Origin: Gimesia sp.
GTDB lineage: Bacteria > Planctomycetota > Planctomycetia > Planctomycetales > Planctomycetaceae
Direction of reading: 5' to 3'
Assembly (NCBI GenBank): GCA_002706765.1
Contig: PAJV01000071.1
Coordinates: forward strand, 1 to 64,000
Length of the DNA: 64,000 nucleotides
In this document: one piece after another, positions 11,665 through 37,047 of the stretch
How positions within the stretch are numbered: position 1 is the stretch's first letter
How the letters are laid out: each line of letters begins with the position of its first letter
Made by a program: the position numbers and the translations under genes
The notes under the pieces: generated by a model
What the model was told of the DNA's origin: nothing
The model's input: only the letters and a program-made list of their open reading frames with translations
Databases searched by the model: none

Positions 11665-13200
11665 TCAGTCTTTTATAAACCGGGATGGGTTTATCGGTTG
11701 TCCCAACCCTTTTGGTGGACTGGACTGTTTGACGCTTGCAATACCGATCTTGAAAACTTGGCTTTCTTGACCTCGATGATCCAGATACTTGATGTAAACG
11801 AGCTTCGACTGGTCAAAGATTCGTTGATCTGAAATCGTCCCACGCCTCAAAAAATTCGTCTTCACAAGGTCTGTAACGGCGTTCCATTCATTCTGGTCGA
11901 ATGAGTAAAAGATATTCGTCGCCTTATTATCCATGACCCAGACTTGGTTGTGATTTGCTAAAAACACCGTTTGGCTGCTCTGAAAAGTCGCCGCTCCGTT
12001 CTCGCTGGCCGTGAGACGCCCCCTCGCATCAGCAAGAAGGTTGTCTGCGAACTTCTTGTCGATAAAGTACCGGTCGAACTTTCCAGTGACTGACGCTTCC
12101 AGTAGCTTTTCGAGATAGTTACGTTCTTTTCCCATATCTACGGTCGAACGATTTGGCATCTGGTCGGCAGAATAGAAATCTGCCAGATCAAGCAATGCAG
12201 GACCGAATTCGGGATGGGATTGAGCGAACTTTTCCAACGAATTGAGTCGTTCCTGTCCCGTTTCTAAACGGAGTGACACAAACTCAATCGCAGTGCTTGA
12301 AGGGAATTGCTCCTTCAACTTTCGTAATTCGTGTGCTGCCGCTTGGTAGCCGTTCTGCGACTTCAACAACGTAAGATAGGAATCGATTGGATCGATAAAG
12401 GGCTGGTCGAAGGACACATAGCGTTCGTAAGAGTCGAATGCTTGTCGAAAATCACCACTTAGCTCGTGGACACGAGCGTTGTGATAGAATTCGGATGGCG
12501 TTTTGGGCTCATTCTTTAGACCGCCGAGGTTACCAAGTTTGTCAATATTCCCTGAGATCTTCTTCGTTTCAGAAAGAATCTCACTCGTGTCTTTTTTGAT
12601 ATCTTGGACGGTCGATTCAATGCCAAGAAGTGTATTTTGAATTTGGGCGACGGCGGTGATGTTTGCACCAAGCACTCCGTTATCGCCGGAATCACACATA
12701 GCGGCGGCTCCATACCAGAATCCAAAAGCCAGCAACAAATAAACGGAAAATATCATTGCTTGATGGGGAATCATCAGATCCCAGTTGGATCGTTGTTCTT
12801 TCGAAAGTCGCCGCCACATTAGAAAAAATGTGATACCACACAGAGCAGTAATGATGGCGAGGTAACCATTGAACGGACCGAGAGGTGTGAGAAAATCAGC
12901 GGCAAGACCACAGATACCGCCAATCGCCGTAGCATATTTCCCACCATGTGCAAGCGATGACTGGAAAGAGATGCTTACTTTTTTCTCGTCGCTAGCTGGG
13001 ACTGGAGGAGTCGGCTTTCGTTGGGGTTTGTCGGGAAACAATCCCTTGATGCCACTTGCTGGTTTCCATTCATCCTTTCCTTCTGTCCAAGCGAGATCGG
13101 ACGGTTGAAGTTCGCCGGAATCAGCGAGTGCCTTTAACTGCTGGGACGTGACAGGACCGTATTTTTCGCCGCCTATTGCATAATGCCATTCTTTCGCCAT
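11665..13200 (-). CDS. GYF_2 (DUF4339) domain membrane protein with TPR-like region
   Basis: A 511-residue protein starting MAKEWHYAIGG (an upstream in-frame TTG exists but the GYF_2 domain begins at the ATG). Residues 1-52 are a GYF_2 domain (YGPVTSQQLKALADSGEL, DEWKPASGIKGLFP), a module associated with protein-protein contacts. Three or four TM segments follow (about residues 88-175, including AIGGICGLAADFLTPLG and MIFSVYLLLAFGFWYGAA). A short coiled coil (LGIESTVQDIKKDTSEIL) leads to a helical tetratricopeptide-like part (HNARVHELSGDFRQAFDSYERYV). GYF_2 membrane proteins of unknown role are frequent in planctomycetes. It probably faces the cytoplasm with both ends; function unknown. Confidence 0.75.
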   Translation of the reverse strand: MAKEWHYAIGGEKYGPVTSQQLKALADSGELQPSDLAWTEGKDEWKPASGIKGLFPDKPQRKPTPPVPASDEKKVSISFQSSLAHGGKYATAIGGICGLAADFLTPLGPFNGYLAIITALCGITFFLMWRRLSKEQRSNWDLMIPHQAMIFSVYLLLAFGFWYGAAAMCDSGDNGVLGANITAVAQIQNTLLGIESTVQDIKKDTSEILSETKKISGNIDKLGNLGGLKNEPKTPSEFYHNARVHELSGDFRQAFDSYERYVSFDQPFIDPIDSYLTLLKSQNGYQAAAHELRKLKEQFPSSTAIEFVSLRLETGQERLNSLEKFAQSHPEFGPALLDLADFYSADQMPNRSTVDMGKERNYLEKLLEASVTGKFDRYFIDKKFADNLLADARGRLTASENGAATFQSSQTVFLANHNQVWVMDNKATNIFYSFDQNEWNAVTDLVKTNFLRRGTISDQRIFDQSKLVYIKYLDHRGQESQVFKIGIASVKQSSPPKGLGQPINPSRFIKD

Positions 13201-15181: not shown

Positions 15182-15776
15182 GATTATTTCTCCCAGCCAA
15201 ATTGAATTGAAGAGAACTCGTGAGATGTTATCTTGCAACCAGACGAGACATATGTCAATCGGTCTTTAGAAAGTTACTGGATGCTGGTTGTTCCATGGTT
15301 AGTGGGGCAGTCACTACCGTCCGTTTCTGGGGCGTCGGTATTTATGCTCATGGATGGAAAGACGCTGCCAGAGAACCGGAGCGTTTTGGATCGTCCTCAT
15401 TGAATTTTAACAGGTGATGATCAGGTTCATCTATGATAGCGAGTTCGGGTGTCAGTCTGTCGGGATGATTGCTGAAATTCATTCCAGCATCTTCGTTCTC
15501 TGAGACAAATCTTAGCCGTTTTGTCTTTCAATTTCCGCACGTGTTCTGATTCTCCAATCTCATTGAAATTTGAGACTCAACTACATCAGCCATACAGCAA
15601 ATCTCAATAAAAGCCTATTATTTAAGGACTTTAGCTGCGAACGCTTTTGCCTGAATCAGTCTCAAAAGCCCATCCCAGCCCCCATCTCAATTCTCTTGAG
15701 ACACAGACCTACGCCCCTCAAAAATAATTGACACCCTTAAGTAAGTCGTCAACTCAACCTCAAAAGGAGACGGCTA
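15182..15776. promoter_or_regulatory. Long leader region of the mobile-element module with repeated TCTCAA/TTGAGA half-sites
   Basis: No convincing gene is present; the plus frame at 15220-15417 has no ribosome site or family. Between about 15555 and 15705 the half-site TCTCAA or its complement TTGAGA occurs at least five times, including two inverted pairs (near 15563-15577 and 15687-15703, the latter TCTCAATTCTCTTGAGA). These look like operator half-sites for a repressor of the downstream ardC-like gene. Copy 1 of the GACACCC motif is at 15730-15736, and a six-pair stem (15745-15750 with 15769-15774) overlaps the ribosome site AGGAG at 15765-15769. Confidence 0.45.
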
Positions 15777-16661
15777 GTGTCACGCAATCAGCAAATCCGA
15801 AGCGAAATCACAAATCAAATCATTTCTGCTCTGGAAAGTGGAACTCTGGCTTGGCGAAAACCTTGGAGTTCAGATCGCAACTGTGGTATGCCAAAGAATG
15901 TTGTTTCAGGTGATCTATATTCCGGCGTTAATCCTCTCTTACTGGGTCTTGCCAGTGAGCGTCATGGTTTTCAGTCTCGCCACTGGGGAACTTATAAGCA
16001 ATGGAGCGAACTTGGCGGGAAAGTAATGCGACGACCATCGCATGTTCCAAGTGGGCAGTGGGGAACAAAAATCGTCTTCTGCAAGCCGGTCACCAAGAAA
16101 CAAAATGATCATGACGAACCAGAAGAGACTTATTTTCTTCTTCGCACATATACGGTCTTCAACATCGACCAAGTTGAAGGAGATCACCTCGATTATCTTC
16201 GTGTCGGTTACAGCACTGACACCTGCAATTCAGAGAGCAACACTTTTGATGAAGCTGACGAATTGATCGAAGCAACCGAAGCTGATATCCGACATGGTGG
16301 AAATCAGGCGTACTACGATATCCCCGGAGACTACATCCAAGTCCCGAATCGAGATCAGTTTGCAGGATCTGCTTATTATGAAGTTCTATTCCACGAAATC
16401 GTTCATTGGACGGAAAAACGACTTAACTGGGATAGAAATAATAATGGATATGCTCTCGGCGAATTAATCGCAGAAATAGGAGCATGCTATATCTGCTCAG
16501 AGCTTAACATTCCAATGAATGATGAAAACCACCACGCCTATCTCGATGGCTGGCTCAAAAAAATGAAACAGGACTCATCCTTCATTTTCAAGGCTTCATC
16601 GCAAGCCTCAAAAGCGGCAGACTACATCATGTCATTCAAGCCAGTTGAGGTTTCCTGCTGA
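15777..16661 (+). CDS. ardC: ArdC-like antirestriction protein (ssDNA-binding and zincin domains)
   Basis: A 294-residue protein with a GTG start seven bases after AGGAG. The N-terminal part (residues 5-110) matches the ArdC ssDNA-binding domain: IISALESGTLAWRKPW, SGDLYSGVNPLLLGLA, WGTYKQWSELGGKV. The C-terminal part is a zincin-like metallopeptidase domain with HEIVH (residues about 209-213, the HExxH zinc site) and downstream ALGELIAEIGACYICSELN. ArdC proteins protect incoming plasmids or conjugative elements from restriction during transfer. It heads a row of small genes shared with integrative elements. The stop codon TGA overlaps a GACACCC motif copy. Confidence 0.9.
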   Translation: MSRNQQIRSEITNQIISALESGTLAWRKPWSSDRNCGMPKNVVSGDLYSGVNPLLLGLASERHGFQSRHWGTYKQWSELGGKVMRRPSHVPSGQWGTKIVFCKPVTKKQNDHDEPEETYFLLRTYTVFNIDQVEGDHLDYLRVGYSTDTCNSESNTFDEADELIEATEADIRHGGNQAYYDIPGDYIQVPNRDQFAGSAYYEVLFHEIVHWTEKRLNWDRNNNGYALGELIAEIGACYICSELNIPMNDENHHAYLDGWLKKMKQDSSFIFKASSQASKAADYIMSFKPVEVSC

Positions 16662-16677
16662 CACCCACAAGTAGATT

Positions 16678-16763
16678 GATCGCCGTCACTGATCGGTTCA
16701 GATCTCAGTGGTCTTTCAGTTGAGATCGAAGACCACTGTTAGTTCTGGATCAGGACGGCGATC
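16678..16763 (+). ncRNA. Nested perfect stems in the leader of the P-loop ATPase gene
   Basis: An outer 10-bp perfect inverted repeat (GATCGCCGTC at 16678-16687 with GACGGCGATC at 16754-16763) encloses an inner 10-bp perfect repeat (CAGTGGTCTT at 16706-16715 with AAGACCACTG at 16729-16738). It lies between GACACCC copies 2 and 3. It is followed by a short A-rich stretch, so on the plus strand it is not a classical U-tract terminator. It may be a structured leader, a protein-binding site or a small RNA. Confidence 0.45.
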
Positions 16764-16806
16764 ATTAAAAAATGACACCCGCAATTAATCTGAAAGGAAT
16801 AAAATA

Positions 16807-17700
16807 ATGGATACACCGACTACAGTTACTTCTCTGGAAAAGAAACAAGAACTCTTAGCTCATCATGTTCGTTTATTGACTAAGAAAATGAGCCATGCCT
16901 TGTTTGTATTTGGCTCTCAAGGTGGACTCGGCAAGAGTCGGACCATTCTACAAGTGCTGGATGAATATGGCGTAGATCCAATCATCATAAATTCACATAT
17001 CACGCCCCTCGCTCTATACGGGACTCTTTTTCAACATCGTGATGATGCTGTACTGTTTTTCGATGACGTTGACAGCATGTATTCATCTATGCCGCATTTG
17101 GGCTTGTTGAGGTCAGCACTCTGGGGAAATCCTCGTATCGTTACCTATGGAAGTTCTCAACTCAGCGACCTTCCATCAAGTTTTGAATTTACTTCTCGTT
17201 GCATTTTTGCTGCCAATGTCATTCCCAAAAATGATGCTTTTAAAGCCGTCCTCAGTCGCTGTGATCAGTTTGAGCTATCTGCAACTAACGGCGAAGTGAT
17301 CGAGATGATGCGTAATCTCTCTGCTCAGGGATTCCATGGAGTGACACCCGAAGAATGTGAAGCTGTGATCGACTACATCGAACAAAACGCAGAAGACCGT
17401 CAGCTATCACTGAGGCTTCTTGGACCAAGTCTGCGAAAGCTTAAATATGCTCGTGAGGAGGGCATCGACTGTCGTCCATTAATCAAAAGCCAGCTCATGT
17501 CGCTTGGAAGAAAGCAAGTGGCAACCAAGCGTCTCGACAATAAAACCGTCGATGCAAAAGTGATGAAGCAGGCGATGGAAAAACATCCAGAGTCCCCGGC
17601 TGATCAGCAGACTTTCTGGTGCGACAAAACTGGCAAGAGCAGGGCAAGTTTTTTCAGAGCTCGTCAACGATATCAGAAAATGCTCGATGAATCTGAATGA
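16807..17700 (+). CDS. P-loop ATPase of the mobile-element module
   Basis: A 297-residue protein with Walker A at about residues 37-46 (GSQGGLGKSRT) and Walker B at about 79-87 (AVLFFDDVDSMY). A sensor-1-like stretch (RCIFAANVIPKND) and an arginine-rich helix follow, so it is an AAA-type ATPase of the kind found on phages and plasmids. The C-terminal 60 residues look like a basic DNA-binding tail (KSRASFFRARQRYQKML). The ribosome site AAAGGAAT precedes the ATG. It is in line with the ardC-like gene upstream; roles in replication, partition or transfer are possible. The stop codon overlaps a GACACCG motif variant. Confidence 0.75.
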   Translation: MDTPTTVTSLEKKQELLAHHVRLLTKKMSHALFVFGSQGGLGKSRTILQVLDEYGVDPIIINSHITPLALYGTLFQHRDDAVLFFDDVDSMYSSMPHLGLLRSALWGNPRIVTYGSSQLSDLPSSFEFTSRCIFAANVIPKNDAFKAVLSRCDQFELSATNGEVIEMMRNLSAQGFHGVTPEECEAVIDYIEQNAEDRQLSLRLLGPSLRKLKYAREEGIDCRPLIKSQLMSLGRKQVATKRLDNKTVDAKVMKQAMEKHPESPADQQTFWCDKTGKSRASFFRARQRYQKMLDESE

Positions 17701-17845
17701 CACCGGCTATCAATCCATAAAGATGTTATTTCCAAGATCCCTTGAAAAAAAGTTTTGTCCTATTAGGTTGATATTATCAGGCTACGAAAACAAACCACAC
17801 TGCCCTTTGAGACAGTGGGGAAGCAGACACAAAGTTCATTGCTAG

Positions 17846-18193
17846 TTATTCTTCTGGAGTTACACGCCAGCCATTTTCTAGTAACTTTTTTCTAAGCACG
17901 CTTGGTCGTACCCCATCGTCATACTCAGCGTAAGTCTCTAATAGCAATCGTTTCGGTTTATCTTTTGGGGTCATACATTCTTCAACGATAAACTTTGAAC
18001 CTATTGAAAAAGTTACGCCTTCGTGAGTCAATTCATATTCTTTATATAGATAATCAAACTCACCTGATAAGTCATCACCTTCGGCATAGTCATTTTCCGA
18101 TTCGATTTCTTTCTTCGCATACATCAAGGTACTACCAGTTCTCATGTCTTCAACTTTAAGTTCTATTTCATATTTCTTTTTAGTTTCTGTCAT
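17846..18193 (-). CDS. Small hypothetical protein, related to the one at 38985
   Basis: A 115-residue, charged, beta-rich protein (KKKYEIELKVEDMRTGSTLM, KKEIESENDYAEGDDLSGEF) with no signal or TM segment. It lies on the opposite strand to its neighbours, between GACACCC copies 4 and 5, as if inserted into the module. The N-terminal half aligns by eye with the protein at 38985-39293 (VEFEVRDMEIGG..., IESEYRYNVGDVFNE). I do not recognise a named family. A hairpin CACTG/CAGTG near 17800-17818 downstream of its stop may be its terminator. Confidence 0.55.
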   Translation of the reverse strand: MTETKKKYEIELKVEDMRTGSTLMYAKKEIESENDYAEGDDLSGEFDYLYKEYELTHEGVTFSIGSKFIVEECMTPKDKPKRLLLETYAEYDDGVRPSVLRKKLLENGWRVTPEE

Positions 18194-18381
18194 CGCAAAG
18201 CCCTATCTTTTTTTGTTGGAAATGCTTTCCACAGAGGAAAGAATGATAGCATTCTAATTCAATTATAAAGCAAAAGATACTTCGACAGACAGGTAAGCCA
18301 ATGCGTTCGAATCAATTCAGAAATTGGCTAATAGAGAAGAAGAAGTTGGATATGAAGTTATCCCCATCTGACACCCAACAG

Positions 18382-18411
18382 ATGATTGTTCAACTAAACA
18401 CAATCATTTTT
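18382..18411 (+). terminator. Hairpin plus T-run upstream of the plasmid-related gene
   Basis: ATGATTGT at 18382-18389 pairs with ACAATCAT at 18400-18407, followed by TTTTT. It lies just after GACACCC copy 5 and just before the ribosome site (AGAAGGGAA) of the gene at 18425, so it would act as an intrinsic terminator or attenuator in that gene's leader. Confidence 0.5.
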
Positions 18412-18424
18412 AGAAGGGAACATA

Positions 18425-18712
18425 ATGATTCAAAAAAGCAAACCACTCTTCCAGCTAGGCAAAACAGTCGCCACTCATGGAGCTCTTGATGCTCTCCAGC
18501 CAAACAATCAGTCACCGTTGGAATTCTTTGAAAGACATTCTTTTGGCGACTGGAACGAACTGTCCCCAGAAGACCGAGAAGCCAATGAACTGGCCTTAAA
18601 AAATGGCGACCGCATTTTCAGTGTGTACCATCTCAATGACAAAACAAAGATCTGGATAATCACGGAAGCTGATCGGTCTGCCACCACGATTCTTCTACCC
18701 GAAGAATACTGA
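18425..18712 (+). CDS. Conserved integrative-element protein ('plasmid-related protein')
   Basis: A 95-residue protein of a family regularly found in integrative and conjugative elements: LFQLGKTVATHGALDALQ, FERHSFGDWNELSPEDREAN, RIFSVYHLNDKTKIWIIT, and the very typical end EADRSATTILLPEEY. No enzymatic motif is known to me; the family is annotated only by occurrence. The ribosome site AGAAGGGAA precedes the ATG. It lies between the P-loop ATPase and the acidic 71-residue protein, each separated by a GACACCC-containing leader. Confidence 0.8.
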   Translation: MIQKSKPLFQLGKTVATHGALDALQPNNQSPLEFFERHSFGDWNELSPEDREANELALKNGDRIFSVYHLNDKTKIWIITEADRSATTILLPEEY

Positions 18713-18769
18713 AATCGACACCCTCAATCACATTGTGCTTAACATCAAATATCTTTTCAGGAGAAACAA

Positions 18770-18985
18770 ATGATGGACGACCAGTTAGATTCATTCATGG
18801 AGAGTCATTTGAACGGCAACTATGGCGACATTCTGGATGAACAAACGGCTGATGAGTTCGCCGAAGAGTACGACGAAGAATTTCCATTTGACGAACCTTG
18901 GGACGATATTCTCCAGCAGCAAGAACTCGAAGATTTCGAGCAGGCAGACGAATACTTCGGCTTCTTCGGCTACGACGAGTTCTAA
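18770..18985 (+). CDS. Extremely acidic small protein, candidate DNA mimic
   Basis: A 71-residue protein with 26 Asp or Glu and no Lys or Arg (counted by eye), for example EQTADEFAEEYDEEFPFDEP and EDFEQADEYFGFFGYDEF. A good ribosome site (AGGAG six bases before the ATG) supports translation. The composition resembles DNA-mimic antirestriction proteins such as ArdA and Ocr, although it is shorter and I see no family match. The nearby ardC-like gene and the type I restriction operon in the same island make an antirestriction role a reasonable guess. It could also be a disordered acidic chaperone-like protein. Confidence 0.65.
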   Translation: MMDDQLDSFMESHLNGNYGDILDEQTADEFAEEYDEEFPFDEPWDDILQQQELEDFEQADEYFGFFGYDEF

Positions 18986-19018
18986 ACTCTGAGTTCCAGA
19001 TACCAGACACCCACAAGG

Positions 19019-19064
19019 CTGTTGTGAGAATCATTGTGATTCTCTCAGCAGTTTTTTCTTTTTT
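19019..19064 (+). terminator. Intrinsic terminator after the acidic protein gene
   Basis: GAGAATCA at 19026-19033 pairs with TGATTCTC at 19037-19044. The stem extends outward (CTG at 19019-19021 with CAG at 19049-19051) and is followed by TTTTTTCTTTTTTA. It follows GACACCC copy 7 and precedes the gene at 19078, so copy 7 lies upstream of a terminator. Confidence 0.7.
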
Positions 19065-19077
19065 ACTGGAGATCTAT

Positions 19078-19434
19078 ATGGGCTGGACATTTCCAACAGG
19101 TGTATCAAGACAGGAGCTAATTCGACAGAGAACGAGACCTTGGGAACGAGAACTCAATGGTGTTCTTGTTAAATCAACTTGTCTTGCCTTTTGTTTTAAG
19201 GGTGGCAAATGTTCGGGAGTCTTGTGGGCCGTCTGGGAGCGGACATTTGAACGTGAAGGGGAGCAGGTTGAAAGAACTCAACGCTGGATCACCTGTGATC
19301 TCATTACATATGAGGGGGACGAATGGAACGGTAAGAATATAGATGAATTTCAGACTCACCATTTCTACGTTTCTCCTCAGAAGCATTTGGAATTGGTCTC
19401 TACAGAACGGTACGGCGAAAATGCAGACTGGTGA
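19078..19434 (+). CDS. Small conserved integrative-element protein
   Basis: A 118-residue protein starting MGWTFPTGVSRQELIRQRT, with GGAG at a suitable distance; the frame is open upstream but the family-like start is here. It contains VLVKSTCLAFCFKGG and VLWAVWERTF, then ITCDLITYEGDEWNGK. Proteins beginning MGW-x-F/Y with 'sR.ELI' are, as I recall, common in islands and conjugative elements and have no known function. It lies in line with the plasmid-related and acidic genes. Confidence 0.65.
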   Translation: MGWTFPTGVSRQELIRQRTRPWERELNGVLVKSTCLAFCFKGGKCSGVLWAVWERTFEREGEQVERTQRWITCDLITYEGDEWNGKNIDEFQTHHFYVSPQKHLELVSTERYGENADW

Positions 19435-19560
19435 TCTCAAGTGAGACATCGCCATCAAGAAAGGCTCAAAAAGAGGCGTCAACGTAAGTCTCAAGGTCTC
19501 ACTAAATGACACCCTCATGACCTGTGTACAAATCACTTATCACTTTTTCAGGAGATGCCA

Positions 19561-19806
19561 ATGACAGATCAGACTGAATCAATTCGCCGGAAAATGACAC
19601 AAAGTATTAATGCTGTGGAAGGAAGTCGGGAGTACCTTGAGGCCAAGCATGGACAGGTTTTCGATAGTACAGAGCTACAGCAGGAGTTTTTAGTCGAAGG
19701 ATTTATGGCCCCCTTTGTGCTGGCAAGACGAAAATCGGATGGCATAAGGGGAACGTTGAAATTTCAACACTCTCCACGTTTCTATTTCAGTTTCGAACCT
19801 GAGTGA
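19561..19806 (+). CDS. Small conserved integrative-element protein
   Basis: An 81-residue protein: MTDQTESIRRKMTQSINA, REYLEAKHGQVFDSTELQQE, FLVEGFMAPFVLARRKSDG and the end FQHSPRFYFSFEPE. I recall the pattern 'E..HG.VwdT.EL..dF.v.gF.AP.v.vrRksDg..GsL.FqH.PRfYF' from integrative-element cargo. The function is unknown. I chose the second ATG (19561) because GGAG abuts the first ATG at 19555 too closely. GACACCC copy 8 is 47 bases upstream. Confidence 0.7.
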   Translation: MTDQTESIRRKMTQSINAVEGSREYLEAKHGQVFDSTELQQEFLVEGFMAPFVLARRKSDGIRGTLKFQHSPRFYFSFEPE

Positions 19807-19874
19807 TCAACAACTTGTGTCCGGGAGTCACGGAGGACTCCCGACACCTTCTATTAATTACGGGAGATCTGAAT

Positions 19875-19988
19875 GTGAACAAAAAGAAACAGAGGCCCAA
19901 AGACAGAACCAGAATTAAACTCAAGCTCCATCGTTTTCCCAAGAGAACTTACTATGGAAAGGGGACTCGGCGTCAGATGAGATGCTGA
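19875..19988 (+). CDS. Very small basic protein (37 aa)
   Basis: A GTG start eight bases after GGGAG opens a 37-codon frame, VNKKKQRPKDRTRIKLKLHR and on to RRQMRC, rich in Lys and Arg. It lies between GACACCT copy 9 and GACACCC copy 10, as do its larger neighbours, which supports it as a real gene unit. It could be a small nucleic-acid-binding protein. Confidence is limited by size. Confidence 0.4.
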   Translation: MNKKKQRPKDRTRIKLKLHRFPKRTYYGKGTRRQMRC

Positions 19989-20051
19989 GGGAAAGACACC
20001 CGGAGAGAACTTGTCAGATTGACAACTAGGTTCTATCAACTCACACTTCAC

Positions 20052-20762
20052 TTAGTCAATGAGTTTCCAGTCTTCGGCAAAGTCATTTCCAATCAAGTCA
20101 CTGACAATTTGATTAAATCTAGTTCCACCTCCCAAAAGTTTTACGATTTCTTCGAAAATCAAAACATGACATGCACGTATCACTGGTCCGGTTTTTCCGA
20201 ATTTCCATTTTTCCCATACTTTCTGACGAACCATTAGCAACCACGTGTCTGACATTGGAAGACTCTTCCCTTCATACGATGCTGATATATCTACCTTATC
20301 TTTTTCCTGCATCTCTAAATGAGAATCAAAAGAATCAAACCTTTTGTCGAGTATTGCGATCATACTTCCTGAAACCCGTGGCGGTTCATGCTTATCTTTC
20401 TTGCATGGCATCAAAAAACGTTTCTGAAAAGCCCCCGTTGTCATTCGAGTCGTTCCAAGCTTGATCTCCATGCCCATACCCTTTGTTTTGTCTGCAAGCA
20501 GGCAATCAATTCTGCTTTCACCATCTACTCCATAATCAGAATTGTTGATTCGAATTCTCTGTATCGAAACATGGTCTTCTACATTTAATTCATCCGCAAA
20601 ATCATGGCTTTTCAATAAGTTACGGAGTGAGACTGTTTGGTCACCAAAGCCTCTACATGTGATTTCCGAATATTTACCATTAGCTAACAGATCTCTCATG
20701 ATTGATGCTACGAGTGGTTCACCTATGTGATGCAAGCATAATGGAGAACTCTTCATGATCAT
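20052..20762 (-). CDS. PD-(D/E)XK-like protein of unknown function
   Basis: A 236-residue protein with a nuclease-like core near residues 80-105: GESRIDCLLADKTKG then MEIKLGTTRM, i.e. D-x(n)-E-x-K. The N-terminus (PLCLHHIGEPLVASIMRDLL) and C-terminus are helical. It lies opposite to the surrounding genes, between GACACCC copies 10 and 11, like the minus-strand gene at 17846, and may be later cargo. A defence nuclease or a nuclease-fold helper are both possible. Confidence 0.6.
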   Translation of the reverse strand: MIMKSSPLCLHHIGEPLVASIMRDLLANGKYSEITCRGFGDQTVSLRNLLKSHDFADELNVEDHVSIQRIRINNSDYGVDGESRIDCLLADKTKGMGMEIKLGTTRMTTGAFQKRFLMPCKKDKHEPPRVSGSMIAILDKRFDSFDSHLEMQEKDKVDISASYEGKSLPMSDTWLLMVRQKVWEKWKFGKTGPVIRACHVLIFEEIVKLLGGGTRFNQIVSDLIGNDFAEDWKLID

Positions 20763-20975
20763 TCACTCATTCTAAGAAATCGAGTTATCTCACTGACATG
20801 AACGCAGTAATTGTAAACAGTCAATAATCTCTGATTCTGGGGTTTGATCCGCTGTAAATCTAGGTCGATCCTGTCTCTCATATCTGTAACGTGTCTCCTG
20901 TAATCTACACTTTACAAATTCTGACACCCATAAGCCATCTGTCCGAAACAGAAATTCAATATGGGAGTCATACAG

Positions 20976-21578
20976 ATGGCGAAATCAACAGCGGTTTACA
21001 TGCGAGTTTCTACAAAGGATCAGAAGCACGCCAGTCAGTCACCAGATCTGGAACGTTGGTGCGAAGCCAATGGTGGCGAAGTGATCTGGTTTCGAGATAC
21101 ATTTTCAGGAAGGACAATGAGCCGTCCGGGAATGGATCAACTTCTCGAATCTCTTCGCATGGGGAAACTGGACCGGATTGTGGTCTGGCGTCTTGATCGT
21201 CTAGGGAGAACGACCAAGGGACTTTGCCAGCTCTTCGACGAACTCCGAGAACGCCGAGTTGATCTCGTCAGTTTGAAAGATGGATTCTCATTGGAGTCTC
21301 CAGCAGGTCGATTACATGCACGCATCCTTGCATCGGTCGCTGAGTACGAAACTGAGATCAGAGCCGAACGTGTTGCGGCAGGGCAAGCAGTCGCAAGAAA
21401 GAACGGAAAGAGATGGGGCGGAAGCGAGAAGGGCTGGCGTTGGAAGGTAACTGACGATCAAGTCAATGCCATCCATGAGATGAAACATGCTGGCAAAGCA
21501 ATCACAAAGATCGCTCGTGTGACTGGGCTATCAAGACCAACGATCTACCGAGTCCTGCGGGAAGTACAGCCACTTTAA
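20976..21578 (+). CDS. Serine recombinase (resolvase/invertase family)
   Basis: A 200-residue small serine recombinase. It starts MAKSTAVYMRVSTKDQ with the catalytic Ser in RVST. Further catalytic-domain signatures are WRLDRLGRT (conserved arginines), SLKDGFSLESPAGRLHARIL and EYETEIRAERVAAG. The C-terminal helix-turn-helix is KAITKIARVTGLSRPTIYRVL. The second ATG (20976) is chosen because GGGAG lies just before it; an ATG at 20961 is in frame. The leader can fold CCATCTGT (20935-20942) onto ACAGATGG (20972-20979), covering the start codon. It acts in site-specific recombination, perhaps on the repeat immediately downstream. Confidence 0.92.
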   Translation: MAKSTAVYMRVSTKDQKHASQSPDLERWCEANGGEVIWFRDTFSGRTMSRPGMDQLLESLRMGKLDRIVVWRLDRLGRTTKGLCQLFDELRERRVDLVSLKDGFSLESPAGRLHARILASVAEYETEIRAERVAAGQAVARKNGKRWGGSEKGWRWKVTDDQVNAIHEMKHAGKAITKIARVTGLSRPTIYRVLREVQPL

Positions 21579-21957: not shown

Positions 21958-24900
21958 TTAATCTTTAGGCGATAAAAGCATATTGATTTTTTCAACATAT
22001 TTTTTCAGCAAAGAGACTGTATCGTCAACATGATTGTCTAAGCGTGTTGATTTATGCATATCATCTAAATACTTTCTTCTATCATTTCTAGCATCAAGTC
22101 CTTCGATTCCTGCATTCAAATTCTGAATCATATTTTTCTGTCTAAATGCGAGTGAATTTTCTTCTACTTCTTTACTGAGTGATGCATTTTCACTTTTTTT
22201 ACTTGTAAATCTCCGCCACAAAGCAAATGCAACAGTAATGTTTGCATACGAATTTAGAATTCTGCCATACCGAAAAAGATCAAGCCGGACCACACGATGA
22301 GCATCCTCTAAAATCCGATCAGCAAGAGTTGGCATACCGTATGGTGCATAACTAAAACATATATACGGTAAGTCATTATCAACCGAATATTCAATTTTAT
22401 TATTTTGAGTAATAGAACTTAGTTTTGCGAAAATCATCACTTCGATTAATTTTATTCTTATTTCATAATACCAAGTCGTCCACCAGACATTTTTTCTGTT
22501 TACTTTAAGCATCTCATTCGCTCGATCTAGAGATTGCCATCCATCCTCTAGTGATAACAAGGAGCTTTGTAACTCTTTAGGTGACTTTGAATATTTCTTG
22601 CAATTCGCACACAGCTGTTCAAAATTGGGAGTTTCATGCCCTATTATTTCTTTGATTATATCAGATTGGTACTCTCCTAGAGTTGAGGCAGCTCCTTTTT
22701 CATTTCTTATGACGAAGAGTGCCTCTTGTATTAAAACTTCGGATCTATGAAGTTCAATAATCGCTTGCTCCATCGCTCCCCTCGAATGTCTTGTTTGTGA
22801 CAAAGCTGCTTCTGCCTCATTGAGTCGACGGTGTGCTTTTCGATAATCTTTTTCCTTATTAAAGGCGACCGCCAAACCTTCTTGAGTCAATAGCCTTTGG
22901 CGATCTTCATACCATTCAGATACATTATATTTATCTAAAGACCTCACAGAGAGAGGCAATGGCCACACACTTTCACCTACATGTTTCTGTAGTATTCTCG
23001 CAGCTTGAAATGCTCGAGAAGCTCGATTAAAAGATTTAGCTGCTTTATCATGAAAATCGCTTATTTTTCCGATGGCTTCGTCATGAGCACTAATCACAAG
23101 GTATGACTGGCCAACTGCTAGGGCAAGCTGCTGCTCTCTTTGAAGTGTTTTTATTACCCTGCCGATAACTGCTTGGAATTGATTTGATTTTTTAATATTA
23201 TTGTCTTTTGATAAATAATTGATCCATTTATCAAGTTCTATTATTTTCTCAGATTCGTCATATAACGAAGTCGACGATTTCAAAATTGAGCTAGGAAATT
23301 TTAACCTCTTATAAATCATGTCGAAGCATTTACTCGAAAAGGAATATGATCGAATTGCGATCCCGAGGATTGATAGTTCATTCCAAGATGAAATCCATTC
23401 AGATAATAATTCGTGAGAGCCCAATCCTATCCCCCGAGGATTTAATACATAGTTAAGACATTTTGCTCTTTCAATTGGGTCAGAACTCATAAGCATATTT
23501 TGATAATCAGAAACTGTTACAACAAATTTGTCGGGATTATGGGTTCGTGCATACTGAGCAATTCTAAGCTGATGATGTCTCTTAATAGCTATGGTATTTT
23601 CTCCAACTTCACGAGCAAGATCACGATTCATTCTTAGAGATGTTTCCCATATTCGAAAAATGATATCTCTCACTTTATTGAAATTGTTCTGTATAAATTT
23701 TCTATTTGATTCCAATTCATTCAATAATATCTTTAGATGAATCTCTCGTAACACATAAAGCTCATGACAGATACCTTTTGAGAACCCCCATGAAAGAATA
23801 GCTGGTCTTGCAACCTCCAGAACTCTAGTAATATCTCCAAGACAAGTAAATATTCTTAAAACTGATTGATTAGCTTCACCGATATCATTCCTTTTTATCA
23901 GAGCAGTTGCTTCATTTATTCTGTGATAAATTATTTCAAATGCAGTTATCGGGTCATCGGAGGCAGCAAATAATCTGTGATACCATTTAGCTAACCCATC
24001 ATGAATGGATGATAAATCATCATCTAAAATTTGATTATTTTTGAGTAAATCCTTTCTTAAAAGATTTCTTATATCGCAATGCATCCATATAAAACCGCCT
24101 TTTTTGCGTCTCAGAACTTGTCGTTTTTGTAGTTCTTCAATCCACTCATCAGCTTGGTAGCTCCATTTTTCAGTTGTATCTTGTCCTTTATTAAATGGCC
24201 AAGACCAAACCATAGAAGGATAACGCAATCTGTTTACTAAGCATAAACAAAATAGAAATCTCAATTTGCTCGAATCGTCGTCTATCCATTCAATAGCTTT
24301 TTTTACGATATCTTTCTGGTCGATTAAATAGGTATTCTTTGAGTGTTCCGTTTCAGACAATTCATATTCATTAATATTAATAATCCTTGAGTCTGATAAA
24401 TTATGGGGATAGTCATAATTGATATTTTCGTGTCCAGTAATACGTGATACGAAAGGCCCATCATAGCAAAGAAGCACAACTGTAACATTGGGGCATTCTT
24501 TTTTACAAAGTCTTTGAATCAGGTTCCTAAATGAATCTCCGTTTGCAGTGAATCCAAAAGAATTATCTGATTCAGCATATTCAGATTTCGGTTCATCAGA
24601 TTCAGTCTTATCGAGCCAGCCATTTGCATAATCATACTCATATTCAGAAAGCACATTTCCAGCTCCACTTCGGGCATTGAGAAATATTACCCACTCACAG
24701 TCTGGGCTATTAGTCAACCTAGATATCTCATGGATTTGAGCATCCTCAATTCTTTGCCGATCCGAATGCTCTCTCAAGAGTAATACTGGAATCCATGTTA
24801 TGATTCCTGCTTTGCGTGAAATCGTATGTACCAATACTTCAAACAGAGAATTACAATCCCGTATCTCATCAAGATCAATCCAAACAGCTTGTCGAGGGCC

Positions 24901-26430
24901 ATCAATTTCCTTAGCAAATATGTCAGCAGCAATAGTTGTTGCTCCAAAGGTTGTATCTCTCTCCCCATGGACAATAATAAATTTAAGATTATCGCTATCA
25001 TTTTTTTTATGAAAACAGAGATTGATTGCCTCTTCTAATTCATTCCTAAGATCTTGTTCATAATTGGGATCTCGATTGCTCTTTAGAGAAACCGCTAAAG
25101 AAGTCTCAGGTGGAACTGGTACTCTTGGTGGAGAAGGAGGAATGCAACCTCTTGGAGGCAGTCCTCTGGTAATTATTTGGAAAAGTTCTAAAAACAAGAG
25201 TCCCGGATATTGATGATTTATAACTTCGTAAGTGATTTGATCGATAGATGGCGGTTTTTTCTCTAAGATTATTTTGAGTTTATTTTTGGTATCTTCTACT
25301 GATTTCGCACGTCCACATATCCAAAATACTTTAAAATTGGTAAGGACTTCGGCTGCATTAGCAATTAGAGAAAGGATCCGTTTATCCTTAGCGGAAGAAC
25401 CGATAACGAAAAGATAACGAGCTGCTGATATGGACTTTGAATTACTATCGCTATTACGAATTGCTTCTTTCCATCTATCAGTTGAGATGTATTGATCTGC
25501 CAAATAAGAACAGAAATGCCTCATGTCATCGTCTGACGGAGGTTGATCAAGTGAGTAGTCTGCTCGCAAACCATAACGGCCACCATGAAGTTTGACTAAA
25601 CAATTTAAGCCTTGCATGTCTCGATAAGAAGGGAGCCCACTTTCAAGGTGAACATCAAAGACAGTCAATTCATTAAATGTTTGTTCAAATGCATGTTCGA
25701 CAAGAGTATCAAAATTAGTTGTTAAAACCGTTGTGATTCTTAAAGGACCAGTTAGTAACGCCAGCATTACATGGCCTAGAGTTGATTTTTTCTGTGAAAC
25801 AACACGTAAAAAAAAAGTATCGATAATATCGTAGTCTGGATGGTTAAGAGTCAGTTTTGATTCTTCTTCGTCATAATTTAATCGAGATAAAAATAAAAGA
25901 GCAGACCGCCACTCCGCCGATGCACCATAACCTTCTTGCAAGATGTCTAACTCACTAGTCTCACTTACCCCATTCTTTTTGCTCTCAATTGCTTGATCTA
26001 GTGCGGCTTTAAGTTTCAATGACCATTCAACCAGATCTTCTTCAAATTCATCTGGTTTACTCTTTGTGCTTTGAGGTACAGCAAAAGGTGGCCAATCATC
26101 TCGTCCGGGTAGCCAACGGAATTTTTTTTGTTCTCTTATTTTTTCGAAATTAATTCTTAATTCGTTATTTCCATGTTTGTATGTGGCACTTCTCAAATTT
26201 AATCCGAATGCCATGGAAATACATTTTATTAAGTATCCATGTAACTCATGGATAATTGGAACTCCAGATGGTGCCGACAGGCCGGCTCCAATAAGTGGAA
26301 TACACCCCAAGCCCTCATCACGAGCTTTACGTATTTCTTTTAAGAAATTAAGTTCTTCAAAAGAGCTTTTTTGTTCGCTGTTAATAGAGAATTTAGGGTT
26401 TGACTCAACAGGATTATCAGATGCTGACAT
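21958..26430 (-). CDS. SIR2-STAND (NLR-like) defence protein, 1490 aa
   Basis: A giant AT-rich gene. Residues about 30-300 are a SIR2-like domain: IPLIGAGLSAPSGVP (GAGxSxxSG), TVLTTNFDTLVEHAF (TxNFD) and VKLHGGRYGLRADY (catalytic-type His). From about residue 450 there is a STAND NTPase-like region with IIVHGERDTTFGATTIAADI in place of Walker A and CEWVIFLNARSG in place of Walker B; the Walker A lysine is absent. Residues 850-1490 are helical repeats, the usual sensor part. SIR2-STAND proteins (Avs5-type) deplete NAD on sensing phage proteins; similarity to Avs5 is by architecture only. It is flanked by the two direct repeats. Confidence 0.85.
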   Translation of the reverse strand: MSASDNPVESNPKFSINSEQKSSFEELNFLKEIRKARDEGLGCIPLIGAGLSAPSGVPIIHELHGYLIKCISMAFGLNLRSATYKHGNNELRINFEKIREQKKFRWLPGRDDWPPFAVPQSTKSKPDEFEEDLVEWSLKLKAALDQAIESKKNGVSETSELDILQEGYGASAEWRSALLFLSRLNYDEEESKLTLNHPDYDIIDTFFLRVVSQKKSTLGHVMLALLTGPLRITTVLTTNFDTLVEHAFEQTFNELTVFDVHLESGLPSYRDMQGLNCLVKLHGGRYGLRADYSLDQPPSDDDMRHFCSYLADQYISTDRWKEAIRNSDSNSKSISAARYLFVIGSSAKDKRILSLIANAAEVLTNFKVFWICGRAKSVEDTKNKLKIILEKKPPSIDQITYEVINHQYPGLLFLELFQIITRGLPPRGCIPPSPPRVPVPPETSLAVSLKSNRDPNYEQDLRNELEEAINLCFHKKNDSDNLKFIIVHGERDTTFGATTIAADIFAKEIDGPRQAVWIDLDEIRDCNSLFEVLVHTISRKAGIITWIPVLLLREHSDRQRIEDAQIHEISRLTNSPDCEWVIFLNARSGAGNVLSEYEYDYANGWLDKTESDEPKSEYAESDNSFGFTANGDSFRNLIQRLCKKECPNVTVVLLCYDGPFVSRITGHENINYDYPHNLSDSRIININEYELSETEHSKNTYLIDQKDIVKKAIEWIDDDSSKLRFLFCLCLVNRLRYPSMVWSWPFNKGQDTTEKWSYQADEWIEELQKRQVLRRKKGGFIWMHCDIRNLLRKDLLKNNQILDDDLSSIHDGLAKWYHRLFAASDDPITAFEIIYHRINEATALIKRNDIGEANQSVLRIFTCLGDITRVLEVARPAILSWGFSKGICHELYVLREIHLKILLNELESNRKFIQNNFNKVRDIIFRIWETSLRMNRDLAREVGENTIAIKRHHQLRIAQYARTHNPDKFVVTVSDYQNMLMSSDPIERAKCLNYVLNPRGIGLGSHELLSEWISSWNELSILGIAIRSYSFSSKCFDMIYKRLKFPSSILKSSTSLYDESEKIIELDKWINYLSKDNNIKKSNQFQAVIGRVIKTLQREQQLALAVGQSYLVISAHDEAIGKISDFHDKAAKSFNRASRAFQAARILQKHVGESVWPLPLSVRSLDKYNVSEWYEDRQRLLTQEGLAVAFNKEKDYRKAHRRLNEAEAALSQTRHSRGAMEQAIIELHRSEVLIQEALFVIRNEKGAASTLGEYQSDIIKEIIGHETPNFEQLCANCKKYSKSPKELQSSLLSLEDGWQSLDRANEMLKVNRKNVWWTTWYYEIRIKLIEVMIFAKLSSITQNNKIEYSVDNDLPYICFSYAPYGMPTLADRILEDAHRVVRLDLFRYGRILNSYANITVAFALWRRFTSKKSENASLSKEVEENSLAFRQKNMIQNLNAGIEGLDARNDRRKYLDDMHKSTRLDNHVDDTVSLLKKYVEKINMLLSPKD

Positions 26431-34612: not shown

Positions 34613-35152
34613 TTAATTTCTAATCACTGAATTGCAATTGGGGCAAATCACACCGGTAGTCTCAAACGCTCCAAAACTTGGTTCTCTTACAATTGTCCCA
34701 CAGCCATGGCACTGGCTCAGGTCATTGCCATGACCACAGTTCCAGCAGGTGTCGTTTCCATGCTCCACTCTTGCTCCGCATCTTGGACACTGGAAACGCC
34801 AATGAGCAGGAGGAATGAAATCAGTGACAGGTTCTCTCAATCCGCCAATTCTTTGAGTCCAAGAGTCTGTATTGAAGGGAGGCGGCAAGCCATCAAAATA
34901 TGGATCGCCACCTTTGGCGATGTATTTCCGATAGGCTGGATCATGGCCGTAACAGACAGCCCCGATCAATCGCACGCCCGTCCAACTGAAAAGTAGAAGA
35001 CCAAGTGGTCCGGCGATGCCACCTAGCACGCAAGGAATGAAGCCCCAGTTCACGCCAAGGATACCCGTGAAGTAAAACAACAAAAATCCACCTATAAAAC
35101 CGACAAGCCCCAAACGAGCTACGATCACAAGTCTGGAGGTCCTAGTGCTCAT
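34613..35152 (-). CDS. Membrane protein with C-terminal zinc ribbons
   Basis: A 179-residue protein. Two TM segments near residues 12-60 (VARLGLVGFIGGFLLFYFTG and GGIAGPLGLLLFSWTGVRLI), then a soluble part with four to six CxxC knuckles: CPRCGARVEHGNDTCWNCGH, QCHGCGTIV and VICPNCNSVI. The start overlaps the end of the gene at 35142 by 11 bases, so they are translated together. Probably a planctomycete-specific membrane protein of unknown role. Confidence 0.65.
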   Translation of the reverse strand: MSTRTSRLVIVARLGLVGFIGGFLLFYFTGILGVNWGFIPCVLGGIAGPLGLLLFSWTGVRLIGAVCYGHDPAYRKYIAKGGDPYFDGLPPPFNTDSWTQRIGGLREPVTDFIPPAHWRFQCPRCGARVEHGNDTCWNCGHGNDLSQCHGCGTIVREPSFGAFETTGVICPNCNSVIRN

Positions 35153-35438
35153 CTGAATTGCCTCTGTAGATCAAACCAGCAATGACAAGCCAGAAACAGA
35201 GTGATCCACCCCACCCCCAGTAACTGAAAAACACAGCTTTGAAGGCGGCTTCCAGATTGGCAACAAAAGGCCAAACTGTGAGGACTGCTGGCAGGAGAAA
35301 AACAGCAGCGATTAACAGAAAGATAACGCCAGCTAAATCGCCCTCAGTATTTCTTGGCTCGACATATCCGCAATGCCGACAGATCGGACGCATTTCCCCC
35401 GGTGGTAATTCTCTTCCGCATCTATTACACATATCCAT
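35142..35438 (-). CDS. Small zinc-ribbon membrane protein
   Basis: A 98-residue protein starting MDMCNRCGRELPPGEM; the ATG at 35438 is eight bases after GGGGAG. A zinc ribbon (CNRCG and CRHCG) is followed by two TM segments (VIFLLIAAVFLLPAVLTVWP and FFSYWGWGGSLCFWLVIAGL). It overlaps the next zinc-ribbon membrane gene and forms a pair with it. Confidence 0.65.
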   Translation of the reverse strand: MDMCNRCGRELPPGEMRPICRHCGYVEPRNTEGDLAGVIFLLIAAVFLLPAVLTVWPFVANLEAAFKAVFFSYWGWGGSLCFWLVIAGLIYRGNSDEH

Positions 35439-35492
35439 GCCTGAGTCTCCCCGCAAATTGAGATAGTGTTGATAGTCATTCGATTCAGTGTT

Positions 35493-36530
35493 CTATTGGG
35501 GTGTCACTTTTATCTCTCTTTCCTTCCCAAATCGCTGAACTTTCAAGACGATCTCCTTACCGAGCTCACATTCGCTTAGTGCTTTTAATGTTTCATCTAC
35601 ATTCGATACTTTCTCGCCATCTACTGACAACAATACGTCACCTTTGCGAACACCTGCTTCTTGAGCAGCACTTCCGGTGATGACCTGTTGAGCAATAATG
35701 CGATTTCCAATTTGCTTCAAAGCGATCCCAAATGAAGGCGGAAACTCCGCAGTGATCTCAATTTGTTTAACAGCGAAGGGAAGATCACCAAAATAGGCGA
35801 TGGCGATCATCGTGTTGTTCTTGATCGAATCTGGATCAACTTTAAACTGATACTCTTGGTGTTCTGATTTTTTCTGATTCACTTTCAGGAGAGAATCAAA
35901 CTGCTTACTGTTTGCAGATCTTGAGAAAGCATTGACATCTCCAGCAGATGCACTTTTCTCAGGTGTACTCTTGCCATGTATGGAAACTCCGATTAAATCT
36001 CCACCAGGTCTAGCTGTTAACTGGAGCATCCCTTCCGAGTGACCAAGTAGATCGATGCGAACTGAATATGGAGGGCGAATCAACCGGGGGAGAGGGGCTT
36101 GAACTTTCTTGGTTTTGTCCGGCGTCAGTACGAGAACACCTTCATCTTCGTCGATACTAAGAGACTGACCAATTTGCTTCTTAGCTTGGTCATTTAAGTG
36201 AGCAGGAAGTAGCTGAGTCGTTTTTTTGATCGTTGCGAAATCATAAACAACATTGAGTCGACCATCATCGAGCTTGGTTACTTTTGCATTACCAAAAGAA
36301 TCCAGTTTGATTTCCTCGCCTTTGACATCACCATCTCGTTCATGAGATTCAGCGATCTCCCGGCTGTCGATGGTGAGCGTGCAATTGCCATCTTCATTAA
36401 CTGATAGTTGAAGTGAATTGATTGAGAGTGGAGCGTCGTCTGCCGCATTGAGCTCGTGGAGTGGGCTCAGAAGGAGCGAGAGGGAGAAAAAGAGAGCGAG
36501 TGCGATTTGTTGAATGGATTTATTTGTCAT
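35493..36530 (-). CDS. Secreted PDZ domain protein
   Basis: A 345-residue protein with a signal peptide (IQQIALALFFSLSLLLSPLH). The middle (residues 30-240) is a beta-rich domain I do not recognise. Residues 255-345 form a PDZ domain: FGIALKQIGNRIIAQQVITG, SAAQEAGVRKGDVLLSVDGE and the end VLKVQRFGKEREIKVTP. It is likely periplasmic and peptide-binding; without a protease domain it is probably an adaptor. Its upstream sequence contains TGACACCCC on the same strand (36587-36596), matching the motif family of the mobile module. Confidence 0.75.
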   Translation of the reverse strand: MTNKSIQQIALALFFSLSLLLSPLHELNAADDAPLSINSLQLSVNEDGNCTLTIDSREIAESHERDGDVKGEEIKLDSFGNAKVTKLDDGRLNVVYDFATIKKTTQLLPAHLNDQAKKQIGQSLSIDEDEGVLVLTPDKTKKVQAPLPRLIRPPYSVRIDLLGHSEGMLQLTARPGGDLIGVSIHGKSTPEKSASAGDVNAFSRSANSKQFDSLLKVNQKKSEHQEYQFKVDPDSIKNNTMIAIAYFGDLPFAVKQIEITAEFPPSFGIALKQIGNRIIAQQVITGSAAQEAGVRKGDVLLSVDGEKVSNVDETLKALSECELGKEIVLKVQRFGKEREIKVTPQ

Positions 36531-37047
36531 CTGCTGAAACCCTTTGTTTTAAAGTTGCTTTGAGATAGTTCTGCTCAGCAACTCTTGGGGTGTCAGCTAC
36601 GACATAATTAAAGAGAGGCGTCAAACCAAGACCACCTCACACGCCCGCCAAGGCGTAGACCAGCAGTACATGGCCGACGCCTCCGTAACGGAGGCGATCG
36701 CCCAGCACTGCTTCTGGTCTTTAGAGCCTATTGGCCTAAACTTGGCGGTTTGTGAGGAAGCAGAACCGACGTTCGCACGTCGTATCAATTGTCAGAAATG
36801 GCCTTTAAAGGCCGACTAATATCTCCTTTTAGTTTTGAAATTTGGGCTTCGATCCGAAGACGAAGCTACTGAACTTATATTACAGTTAGTCTTCACTTCT
36901 TTCTACAGAAATGAGGTGAATTTTTATACCCCGATTAACTACGCTGCCTGATGCAATCAGTGGCTTTCAGCATCATTTTTGGAGCAGCCTGACTATTAAC
37001 ATAACAAACAAGGGACCTGATTCATCAGTGATAATTATGAAAAGAAA
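36531..37047. other. Gene-free stretch with a GC-rich, hairpin-dense core
   Basis: No frame here is convincing. From about 36615 to 36815 the sequence is clearly more GC-rich than its surroundings and packed with small inverted repeats: CGCCTCC/GGAGGCG (36680-36700), CGACG/CGTCG (36770-36785) and GGCCTTTAAAGGCC (near 36800). It may be a structured RNA or a recombination site. The rest is AT-rich. Confidence 0.4.

Follow-up and report, generated by a model that had tools for sequence, protein, structure and literature searches.

The 64,000-nucleotide (nt) stretch of Gimesia sp. analysed here, called the window below (contig PAJV01000071.1, positions 1 to 64,000), contains a module of an integrative element in which the heptamer GACACCC stands before nearly every gene. 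Comparison with related loci indicates that GACACCC is one spelling of a 12-14-nt signal, whose shared frame is roughly CACC-NN-YNA. The signal is directional, is spelled differently in different elements and lies at a near-constant distance from start codons. We tentatively favour the reading that it belongs to a dedicated, element-specific promoter that is followed by a structured leader.

The clustering of the heptamer in the module is not due to chance. Both strands of the window hold 16 copies of GACACCC, while shuffled versions of the window have a mean of 5.15 and a maximum of 11. Ten copies lie on the plus strand between 15730 and 20929 (at 15730, 16660, 16774, 17343, 18370, 18717, 19006, 19508, 19995 and 20923). 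The whole genome has 360 + 319 copies (679 over the two strands) in 7,896,062 bases, and from this rate about 0.22 plus-strand copies are expected in the 5.2-kb interval. The first-pass annotation of this DNA had put the expectation at about 0.3, and its claim of a density far above chance holds. Further, 20 genome stretches of 17.6-20 kb (17 contig starts, two over a second island and one elsewhere) contain 0-3 copies each, with both strands, genes and gaps counted together.

Nine exact plus-strand copies, all in gaps or overlapping stop codons, had been listed earlier. We count ten, nine of which are placed in this way, but the tenth (17343) is intragenic. It was left out of the signal set because it lies inside the ATPase open reading frame (ORF) 16807-17700 and the same codons are present in the homologous gene of the second island. 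The two one-base variants that had been reported, GACACCG at 17699 and GACACCT at 19843, are present in gaps or overlapping stop codons, and both fit the leader pattern. A further GACACCT, at 16218, lies within ardC.

The second island, on contig C13 of the same genome, matches the window region. Its units are led by GGACACCGGCAAG and close variants (11 copies), not by GACACCC, and the sole GACACCC in its module is the copy inside the ATPase gene. Over 21 loci we distinguish nine spellings; the copies largely agree within an element, while the tail and sometimes the core differ between elements. Type A, GACACCC(A/G)CAAG, is found in the window, L056, L057, L059, L060 and L074, and type B, GGACACCGGCAAG, in C13, L055, L058, L073 and L034. 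The others are type C, GGACACCGGCCAG (L065); type D, CGGACACCAACTAC (L064, L080, L081); type F, GACACCCGNA (L061); type G, (G/A)ACACCTGTTAG (L033); type H, TACCCACTA(C/T) (L062); type I, (N)ACACCCGCAA (L076); and type J, GGCACCCCCTAG (L103, L104). Types C, F, G, H and I were each seen at a single locus, and F closely resembles A. The heptamer was rightly described as a gene-leader motif of an element module, and for this element it is the motif, but it is only one spelling of a broader signal. Its possible absence from the modules of relatives had been named as a point that would speak against it: most other element types indeed do without the exact heptamer as leader word, but use another spelling in its place.

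The profiles of the signal have sharp edges, and types A, D and F show a weak YGTY box at positions 18-21. Conservation upstream is confined to the letters right beside the signal (AG in B, TAACG in D), the exception being the recombinase leaders of types A, D and F, discussed below. In the types that contain GACACC, 3-17 copies are observed per locus against shuffled means of 0.6-3.1; the weakest of these loci is L061, with 9 forward and 5 reverse copies and a shuffled maximum of 6. Among 17 genomes of the genus, the four with a B-type element hold 10-21 copies of GGACACCGGNAA each, and the remaining 13 hold 1-6.

Orientation and spacing tie the signal to genes. Over the 21 loci, 263 core copies, some of them intragenic, are on the module strand and 19 on the other strand, 10 of the latter from L061 and L064 (5 each). 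An ORF start follows 154 of the core copies at 28-115 nt; the median distance is 53 nt, and 117 of the 154 are within 44-58 nt. The patterns of types G, H, I and J were read from their own loci, so those counts describe rather than test. With tight per-type patterns, and accepting a signal from -30 to 130 nt before the called start, the signal precedes ArdC in 15/18 cases, the ATPase in 14/19, the recombinase in 11/17 and the 95-amino-acid (aa) gene in 7/16. The corresponding fractions are 10/14 for the 81-aa gene, 9/13 for the GW gene, 11/12 for the 71-aa gene and 7/10 for the 132-aa gene, while the 102-aa (7/7), 135-aa (5/5) and 200-aa (3/3) genes always have it. Tight patterns or erroneous automatic starts account for some of the misses, and some hits fall downstream of a start that was called too early. 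Before ardC a doubled signal is also seen, with two copies 60-66 nt apart and differing sequence between them (L058:6536/6602 and 7881/7947, and the equivalents in L055, L073, L065, L062 and C13).

In the gene exchanges between elements that were checked, the signal in front of the gene matches the recipient. In the trees, the ArdC of L055, a locus with the B spelling, does not fall among those of type B, and the L074 (A) and L080 (D) ATPases group with other types; these trees are small and several of their rows are long-branched (L055 and L062 were flagged in the ArdC tree). Judged by eye, and not from a tree, the recombinases form three subfamilies that cut across the spellings. All four exchanged genes with a signal that were checked (L055 ArdC, L074 ATPase, L080 ATPase and L080 recombinase) carry the word of the recipient, which speaks for a trans factor of the element as the selecting agent. 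In the leader of the L080 recombinase the 108-109-nt spacing and the hairpin are those of B leaders, but the word is that of type D.

The leaders between signal and gene are folded, and several of them strongly, as had been noted earlier. In 132 leaders the mean fold z-score is -0.95, and 33 are below -2; this set is redundant and the z-score has no host control. For pairing we used 75 non-redundant leaders, taken from 104 regular ones among the 132. Leader positions 13-26 pair with their own Shine-Dalgarno (SD)/start segment at -6.17 kcal/mol, compared with -5.03 kcal/mol for swapped partners (standard deviation 0.23), a difference reached in 0/5000 permutations and in 1/5000 within types. 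No such effect is seen in 141 automatically chosen host-gene leaders (-5.23 vs -5.27). It is kept without the ArdC leaders (n=69, 7/5000), while the ArdC leaders alone (n=6) are not significant (331/5000). The arms of the ArdC leaders change together (CCGUC/GACGG, GCGUC/GACGC, GUCGU/ACGAC). Pairing between the signal itself and the 3' segment of its own leader is slightly stronger than with swapped segments (-4.92 vs -4.39, 8/3000); pairing of signal and SD is visible by eye in L033 (CCTGTTA/TAACAGG), and the pooled effect is small but present. In the window, the 5' arm of the ardC leader fold at 15730 pairs with the SD side, and CCATCTGT in the recombinase leader pairs with ACAGATG at the start codon.

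The signal is also placed before a structured RNA. Between ardC and the next gene, elements of types B, C, D and I have an RNA of about 205-224 nt that begins with the signal. The stretches that were folded have a minimum free energy (MFE) of -69 to -91 kcal/mol, and the eight aligned copies end in a closing stem plus a U-rich tail. In these 8 sequences 91.2% of the cells pair, against 79.9 +- 1.1 in shuffled alignments, and 57 cells are changed on both sides, against 21.0 +- 3.6 (0/500; at most 14 when slid). The RNA is found at L014:1011-1233 (minus strand) and also in L055, L058, L064, L065, L080, L081, L076, L034, L061, L103 and L104; among the genomes of the order, 8/170 have it. A covariance model from the 8 loci also finds it in L034 and L061, neither of which was used in building; the L061 copy begins with a weak signal variant. 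Type A has a 110-114-nt hairpin at the same place.

A second RNA, of about 250 nt, occurs at the far end of the islands, at L013:585-850 (plus strand) and also in the window, L084, L085, L086, L091, L093 and L062. Three copies that were folded have an MFE of -100 to -117 kcal/mol; 92.2% of cells pair against 85.4% when shuffled, and 33 cells against 11.3 are changed on both sides (0/500; at most 9 when slid). For both RNAs the structure was derived from the same 8 sequences used for counting, which favours them. Rfam gives no match in the window module (E up to 1). At gathering thresholds it finds only tRNA and tmRNA in seven element loci, and only tRNA in the window, L013 and L085.

Further, the signal stands before opposite-strand genes at the far end of the islands, some 8-20 kb away, and its copies there are oriented with their own genes. 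Such far-end copies number three in C13, two in G119, one each in G150, G038 and G042 and two in G700, and in the window they are two minus-strand GACACCC copies, at 36594 and 35505. Two of those in C13 and G119 lie just behind terminator-like hairpins, and before the far-end genes of L013 and L085 such hairpins end shortly before the signal (all by eye). Our own scan found hairpins of this kind that end just before three signals of L062 and one of L080. If these hairpins act as terminators, a new transcription start close by is required. Leader conservation in the L013/L085 pair exceeds that of the 60 nt upstream (0.94 vs 0.72).

On the reading we favour, the signal would be the recognition core of a dedicated, element-specific promoter, acting as DNA. 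This promoter would give most genes, plus the structured RNA of the element, their own transcription start. A structured leader of about 50 nt with the ribosome-binding site would come after the start, and the signal would be read by a factor that the element carries or that co-evolves with it. With such an element-linked reader each element family would have changed its copies together, as phages change promoter spellings. The T7, T3 and SP6 polymerases have phage-specific promoter sets, which are likewise compact directional signals before genes that changed together between relatives. However, no polymerase gene is present among the proteins scanned here, and no TATA-like melting region is seen. 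Among the readings considered, a promoter best explains one signal per gene or RNA, the near-constant short leader, the far-end genes on the other strand and the signals behind terminator-like hairpins.

Several observations weigh against a promoter. Terminator-like sites are not enriched: they occur upstream of the signal in 9/132 leaders and between signal and start in 6/132, compared with 17/400 random windows, and a stricter terminator scan gives no plus-strand terminator in the window module. Sigma-70-like sites in the window are rarer than in shuffles (3 vs 10.1), and no conserved AT-rich -10-like box is visible in the signal profiles. Seen by eye, a TGTAA...TTTACA-like stretch is shared 7-45 nt upstream of the recombinase signals of types A, D and F (window, L056, L060, L064, L081, L061), so conventional promoters may lie there. 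For the other far-end gene, conservation of leader and upstream sequence overlaps (0.65-0.79 vs 0.58-0.82, six pairs). Many signal copies overlap the stop codon of the gene before, so the genes may belong to one long operon. No signal is found within 130 nt of where the recombinases of L055, L057 and L059 were called to start. The 19 far-end and cargo proteins scanned include no sigma factor or polymerase, and leader pairing is not predicted by a promoter alone.

The known promoter classes and the candidate readers that were compared do not fit. A sigma-70 promoter (TTGACA/TATAAT, spacing 16-18) was rejected on the window count above and because the profiles have no second conserved hexamer. 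The sigma-54 and extracytoplasmic function (ECF) layouts, compared by eye with their consensus, misfit in spacing: the weak YGTY box begins 11 nt after GACACC, and ECF promoters have spacers of about 16. The search for a reader covered 9 proteins of the window module region, 2 of the C13 module, 9 of the G119 island, 10 of the window far end and a 1490-aa SIR2-like protein. In this subset of the island ORFs no family of sigma factors, polymerases or repressors was found. As readers, the ATPase and the recombinase were rejected, since their subtypes do not track the spelling (recombinases by eye, no tree).

Instead of a promoter, the signal could be a tag in the mRNA at the base of a hairpin. 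This hairpin would cover the ribosome-binding site or, in some leaders, act as a terminator, and all leaders would be opened or closed together by an RNA-binding protein or antitermination factor specific to the element. This RNA-level switch best explains the pairing with the SD side, which host leaders do not show, and it agrees with the fold z-scores and the paired changes in the ArdC arms. It also agrees with a terminator-like hairpin that our own scan places between signal and gene at 19006 and in the homologues in L056, L057 and L060. Terminator-like leaders had been proposed in the first-pass annotation, and this hairpin bears them out in part, but the stricter scan does not. However, a compact signal of 12-14 nt is long for a protein site on single-stranded RNA, as well as element-specific, and it is not simply single-stranded since it pairs with its own 3' segment. 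The ArdC leaders alone are not significant, and the hairpins upstream of signals are left unexplained. We regard such a switch as unlikely, if less so than the readings that follow.

The first-pass annotation had suggested that the motif marks cassette borders, which would make it a recombination site for adding, losing or swapping gene units. Integron attC arrays resemble the module in having same-strand gene units separated by a repeated short sequence; attC is recombined by the tyrosine integrase IntI. Units of signal plus gene are indeed gained and lost (the 135-aa unit is absent in L055, and L058 has an extra unit at 11693), the order of the 71-aa and 95-aa genes is swapped between types, and a gene of the serine recombinase family is present in 16/19 loci compared for gene order. 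As a mechanism the suggestion is not supported, however: gene order is largely conserved, the recombinase subfamily does not track the spelling (by eye), and, differently from integrons, the signal stands before genes at a fixed distance; it is also found before far-end genes of the opposite strand. Support for a cassette-border role is poor, and we consider such a role very improbable.

A further reading is that an element-encoded repressor binds asymmetric sites in the gaps, blocking elongation and the first promoter, which would result in coordinated silencing and exclusion of sister elements. The model is the stoperators of the cluster A (L5-like) mycobacteriophages. As reported, these are 13-mer asymmetric sites, more than 20 per phage genome, that are oriented with transcription, lie in short intergenic spaces and have a phage-specific consensus (PMC9283540, PMC6550527). 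The likeness is in short asymmetric sites, many copies, mostly one orientation, short gaps and an element-specific consensus. Here the 263 forward against 19 reverse copies, the far-end copies that follow their own genes, the frequent overlap with stops and the nine spellings (five from one locus each) all agree, and the only plus-strand sigma-70-like site in the window ends 5 nt before the first signal copy. Of the readings considered, this one accounts best for the word being long, asymmetric, family-specific and placed in gaps. What differs here is the typical single copy per gene about 53 nt from the start codon, the folded leaders, the position before a structured RNA, and a core of CACC-NN-YNA with element-specific tails. 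The near-constant distance and the leader pairing are outside the stoperator model, the proteins scanned include no conserved repressor, and ATPase and recombinase do not follow the spelling. We hold this reading to be improbable.

The start-associated sequences of cluster K mycobacteriophages are also short asymmetric repeats tied to translation starts. As reported, they are 13-bp repeats with 11-19 copies per genome, typically 3-7 bp before the start codon and in about half of the cases with inverted repeats upstream (PMC3203893). The present signal differs in its median distance of 53 nt and in standing upstream of the leader hairpin. Guide RNAs were also considered and found unlikely: the 8-10-nt repeated words have no reverse copy in the C13, L062 and L033 modules. 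The wider 14-kb stretches of L073, L076, L079, L080 and L081 hold 1-3 reverse copies of repeated words.

In the window the module starts with the signal GACACCCTTAAG plus GTC at positions 19-21 (15730..15750, plus strand, from the heptamer scan and leader fold), 47 nt before ardC. The ardC gene (15777..16661, plus) encodes ArdcN and MPTase-PolyVal domains according to Pfam. Overlapping its stop is GACACCCACAAG, followed by a strong ORF-free hairpin (16660..16773, plus; 114 nt in total, MFE -49.2 kcal/mol) at the position where other element types have the larger structured RNA. Next come GACACCCGCAAT (16774..16785, plus), 33 nt before the ATPase gene, and the P-loop ATPase itself (16807..17700, plus), whose C-terminus is helix-turn-helix-like by eye (no Pfam match; phrog_1250). 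The variant signal GACACCGGCTAT (17699..17710, plus) overlaps the ATPase stop and is followed by the minus-strand ORF 17846-18193. This ORF had been thought to look inserted, and we agree: at this place L056, L057, L059, L060 and L074 have a signal-led 102-aa gene, which the window is without.

The following units are also on the plus strand. The signal GACACCCAACAG (18370..18381) lies 55 nt before the 95-aa gene 18425-18712, with a leader hairpin ATGATTGT...ACAATCAT, and GACACCCTCAAT (18717..18728) 53 nt before the 71-aa gene 18770-18985. A second GACACCCACAAG (19006..19017) is 72 nt before the gene 19078-19434, with the terminator-like hairpin between them, and GACACCCTCATG (19508..19519) is 53 nt before an 81-aa reading, from 19561, of ORF 19555-19806. 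The variant GACACCTTCTAT (19843..19854) precedes by 32 nt a 37-aa ORF with relatives in L059, L060 and L074. After GACACCCGGAGA (19995..20006) come a hairpin, seen by eye, and the minus-strand ORF 20052-20762. The last copy, GACACCCATAAG (20923..20934), is 53 nt before a 200-aa reading, from 20976, of the serine recombinase ORF 20961-21578. At the recombinase position, a family of signal-led genes of about 241-246 aa is found in L074 (14775 onward) and L065 (13144 onward; oriented coordinates).

At the far end, on the minus strand, GACACCCCAAGA (36583..36594) lies 64 nt before the PDZ-domain gene 35493-36530, and the second structured RNA (36600..36850, about 250 nt) is directly upstream of this signal. 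The other far-end signal, GACACCCCAATA (35494..35505, minus), overlaps the end of the previous gene; 67 nt beyond it, counted by hand, is an ATG in frame in the minus-strand ORF 35145-35456. The 1490-aa protein, with weak SIR2-type defence matches, is encoded beside the module (21958-26430, minus), and a 147-aa phage-integrase ORF is also present in the window. Near 83880-83770 of contig C13 in genome G000, a degenerate left end resembles a type-A element, and its ardC leader appears without the GACACCC letters.

Relatives were sought by a search with an alignment of the ATPases, in genome sets that overlap and with E limits that differed. Matches were found in 14/150 genomes of the family, 13/170 of the order, 7/392 of the phylum and 6/241 of a second family, and in four named contigs (Laterigemmans baculatus, metagenome-assembled genomes (MAGs) of Planctomycetaceae and Schlesneria, and a MAG labelled Nealsonbacteria). 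A plasmid search gave one weak ATPase match; viral contigs gave two distant ones, and the most repeated words of these contigs show no such signal. The 32 regions around ATPase matches represent 29 distinct ones (three pairs were judged to be the same contig), and 19 of the 29 have the signal array. The ten without it are L036, L063, L066-L070, L075, L077 and L082. Seven of these are weak ATPase matches (E 1e-20 to 1e-35), but three are good matches that count against universality: L063 (3e-147), L036 (51% identity) and L082 (3e-103, partly masked).

Run on the 170 genomes of the order, the covariance model of the RNA unit after ardC recovered known loci and also two places not arrived at through the ATPase search, G050:C8 and G131:C31; G050 has a weak ATPase match 42 kb off on the same contig. 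Both new RNA units start with GGCACCCCCTAG. With tail variants, this word gives 14 pattern matches in L103 and 10 in L104, of which 9 in each locus have an ORF start 47-73 nt on; the other strand of these two loci has no match. From 11703 onward on the reverse strand, L104 also has a signal-led 153-aa protein whose start resembles an excisionase-type helix-turn-helix by eye, a possible reader. In a literature search, which covered little of the subscription literature, we recognised no account of such an element or signal; as evidence of absence this is weak.

What began as a local repeat becomes a testable, element-wide regulatory code, whose spelling differs between co-resident islands; three of the loci are co-resident in one genome. 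Taken together, the elements may possess a private gene-expression system, with their own promoter-leader code, an element-borne reader, a spelling that evolves per family, two structured RNAs of their own and independent expression of co-resident elements, although we hold this broader picture to be somewhat doubtful. If the promoter reading is true, small islands would carry a dedicated promoter specificity; if the RNA-level switch is true, they would carry a regulon of linked translational leaders. The two covarying RNAs have no Rfam match in the loci searched, and a family of planctomycete integrative elements can now be recognised by the signal plus ardC.

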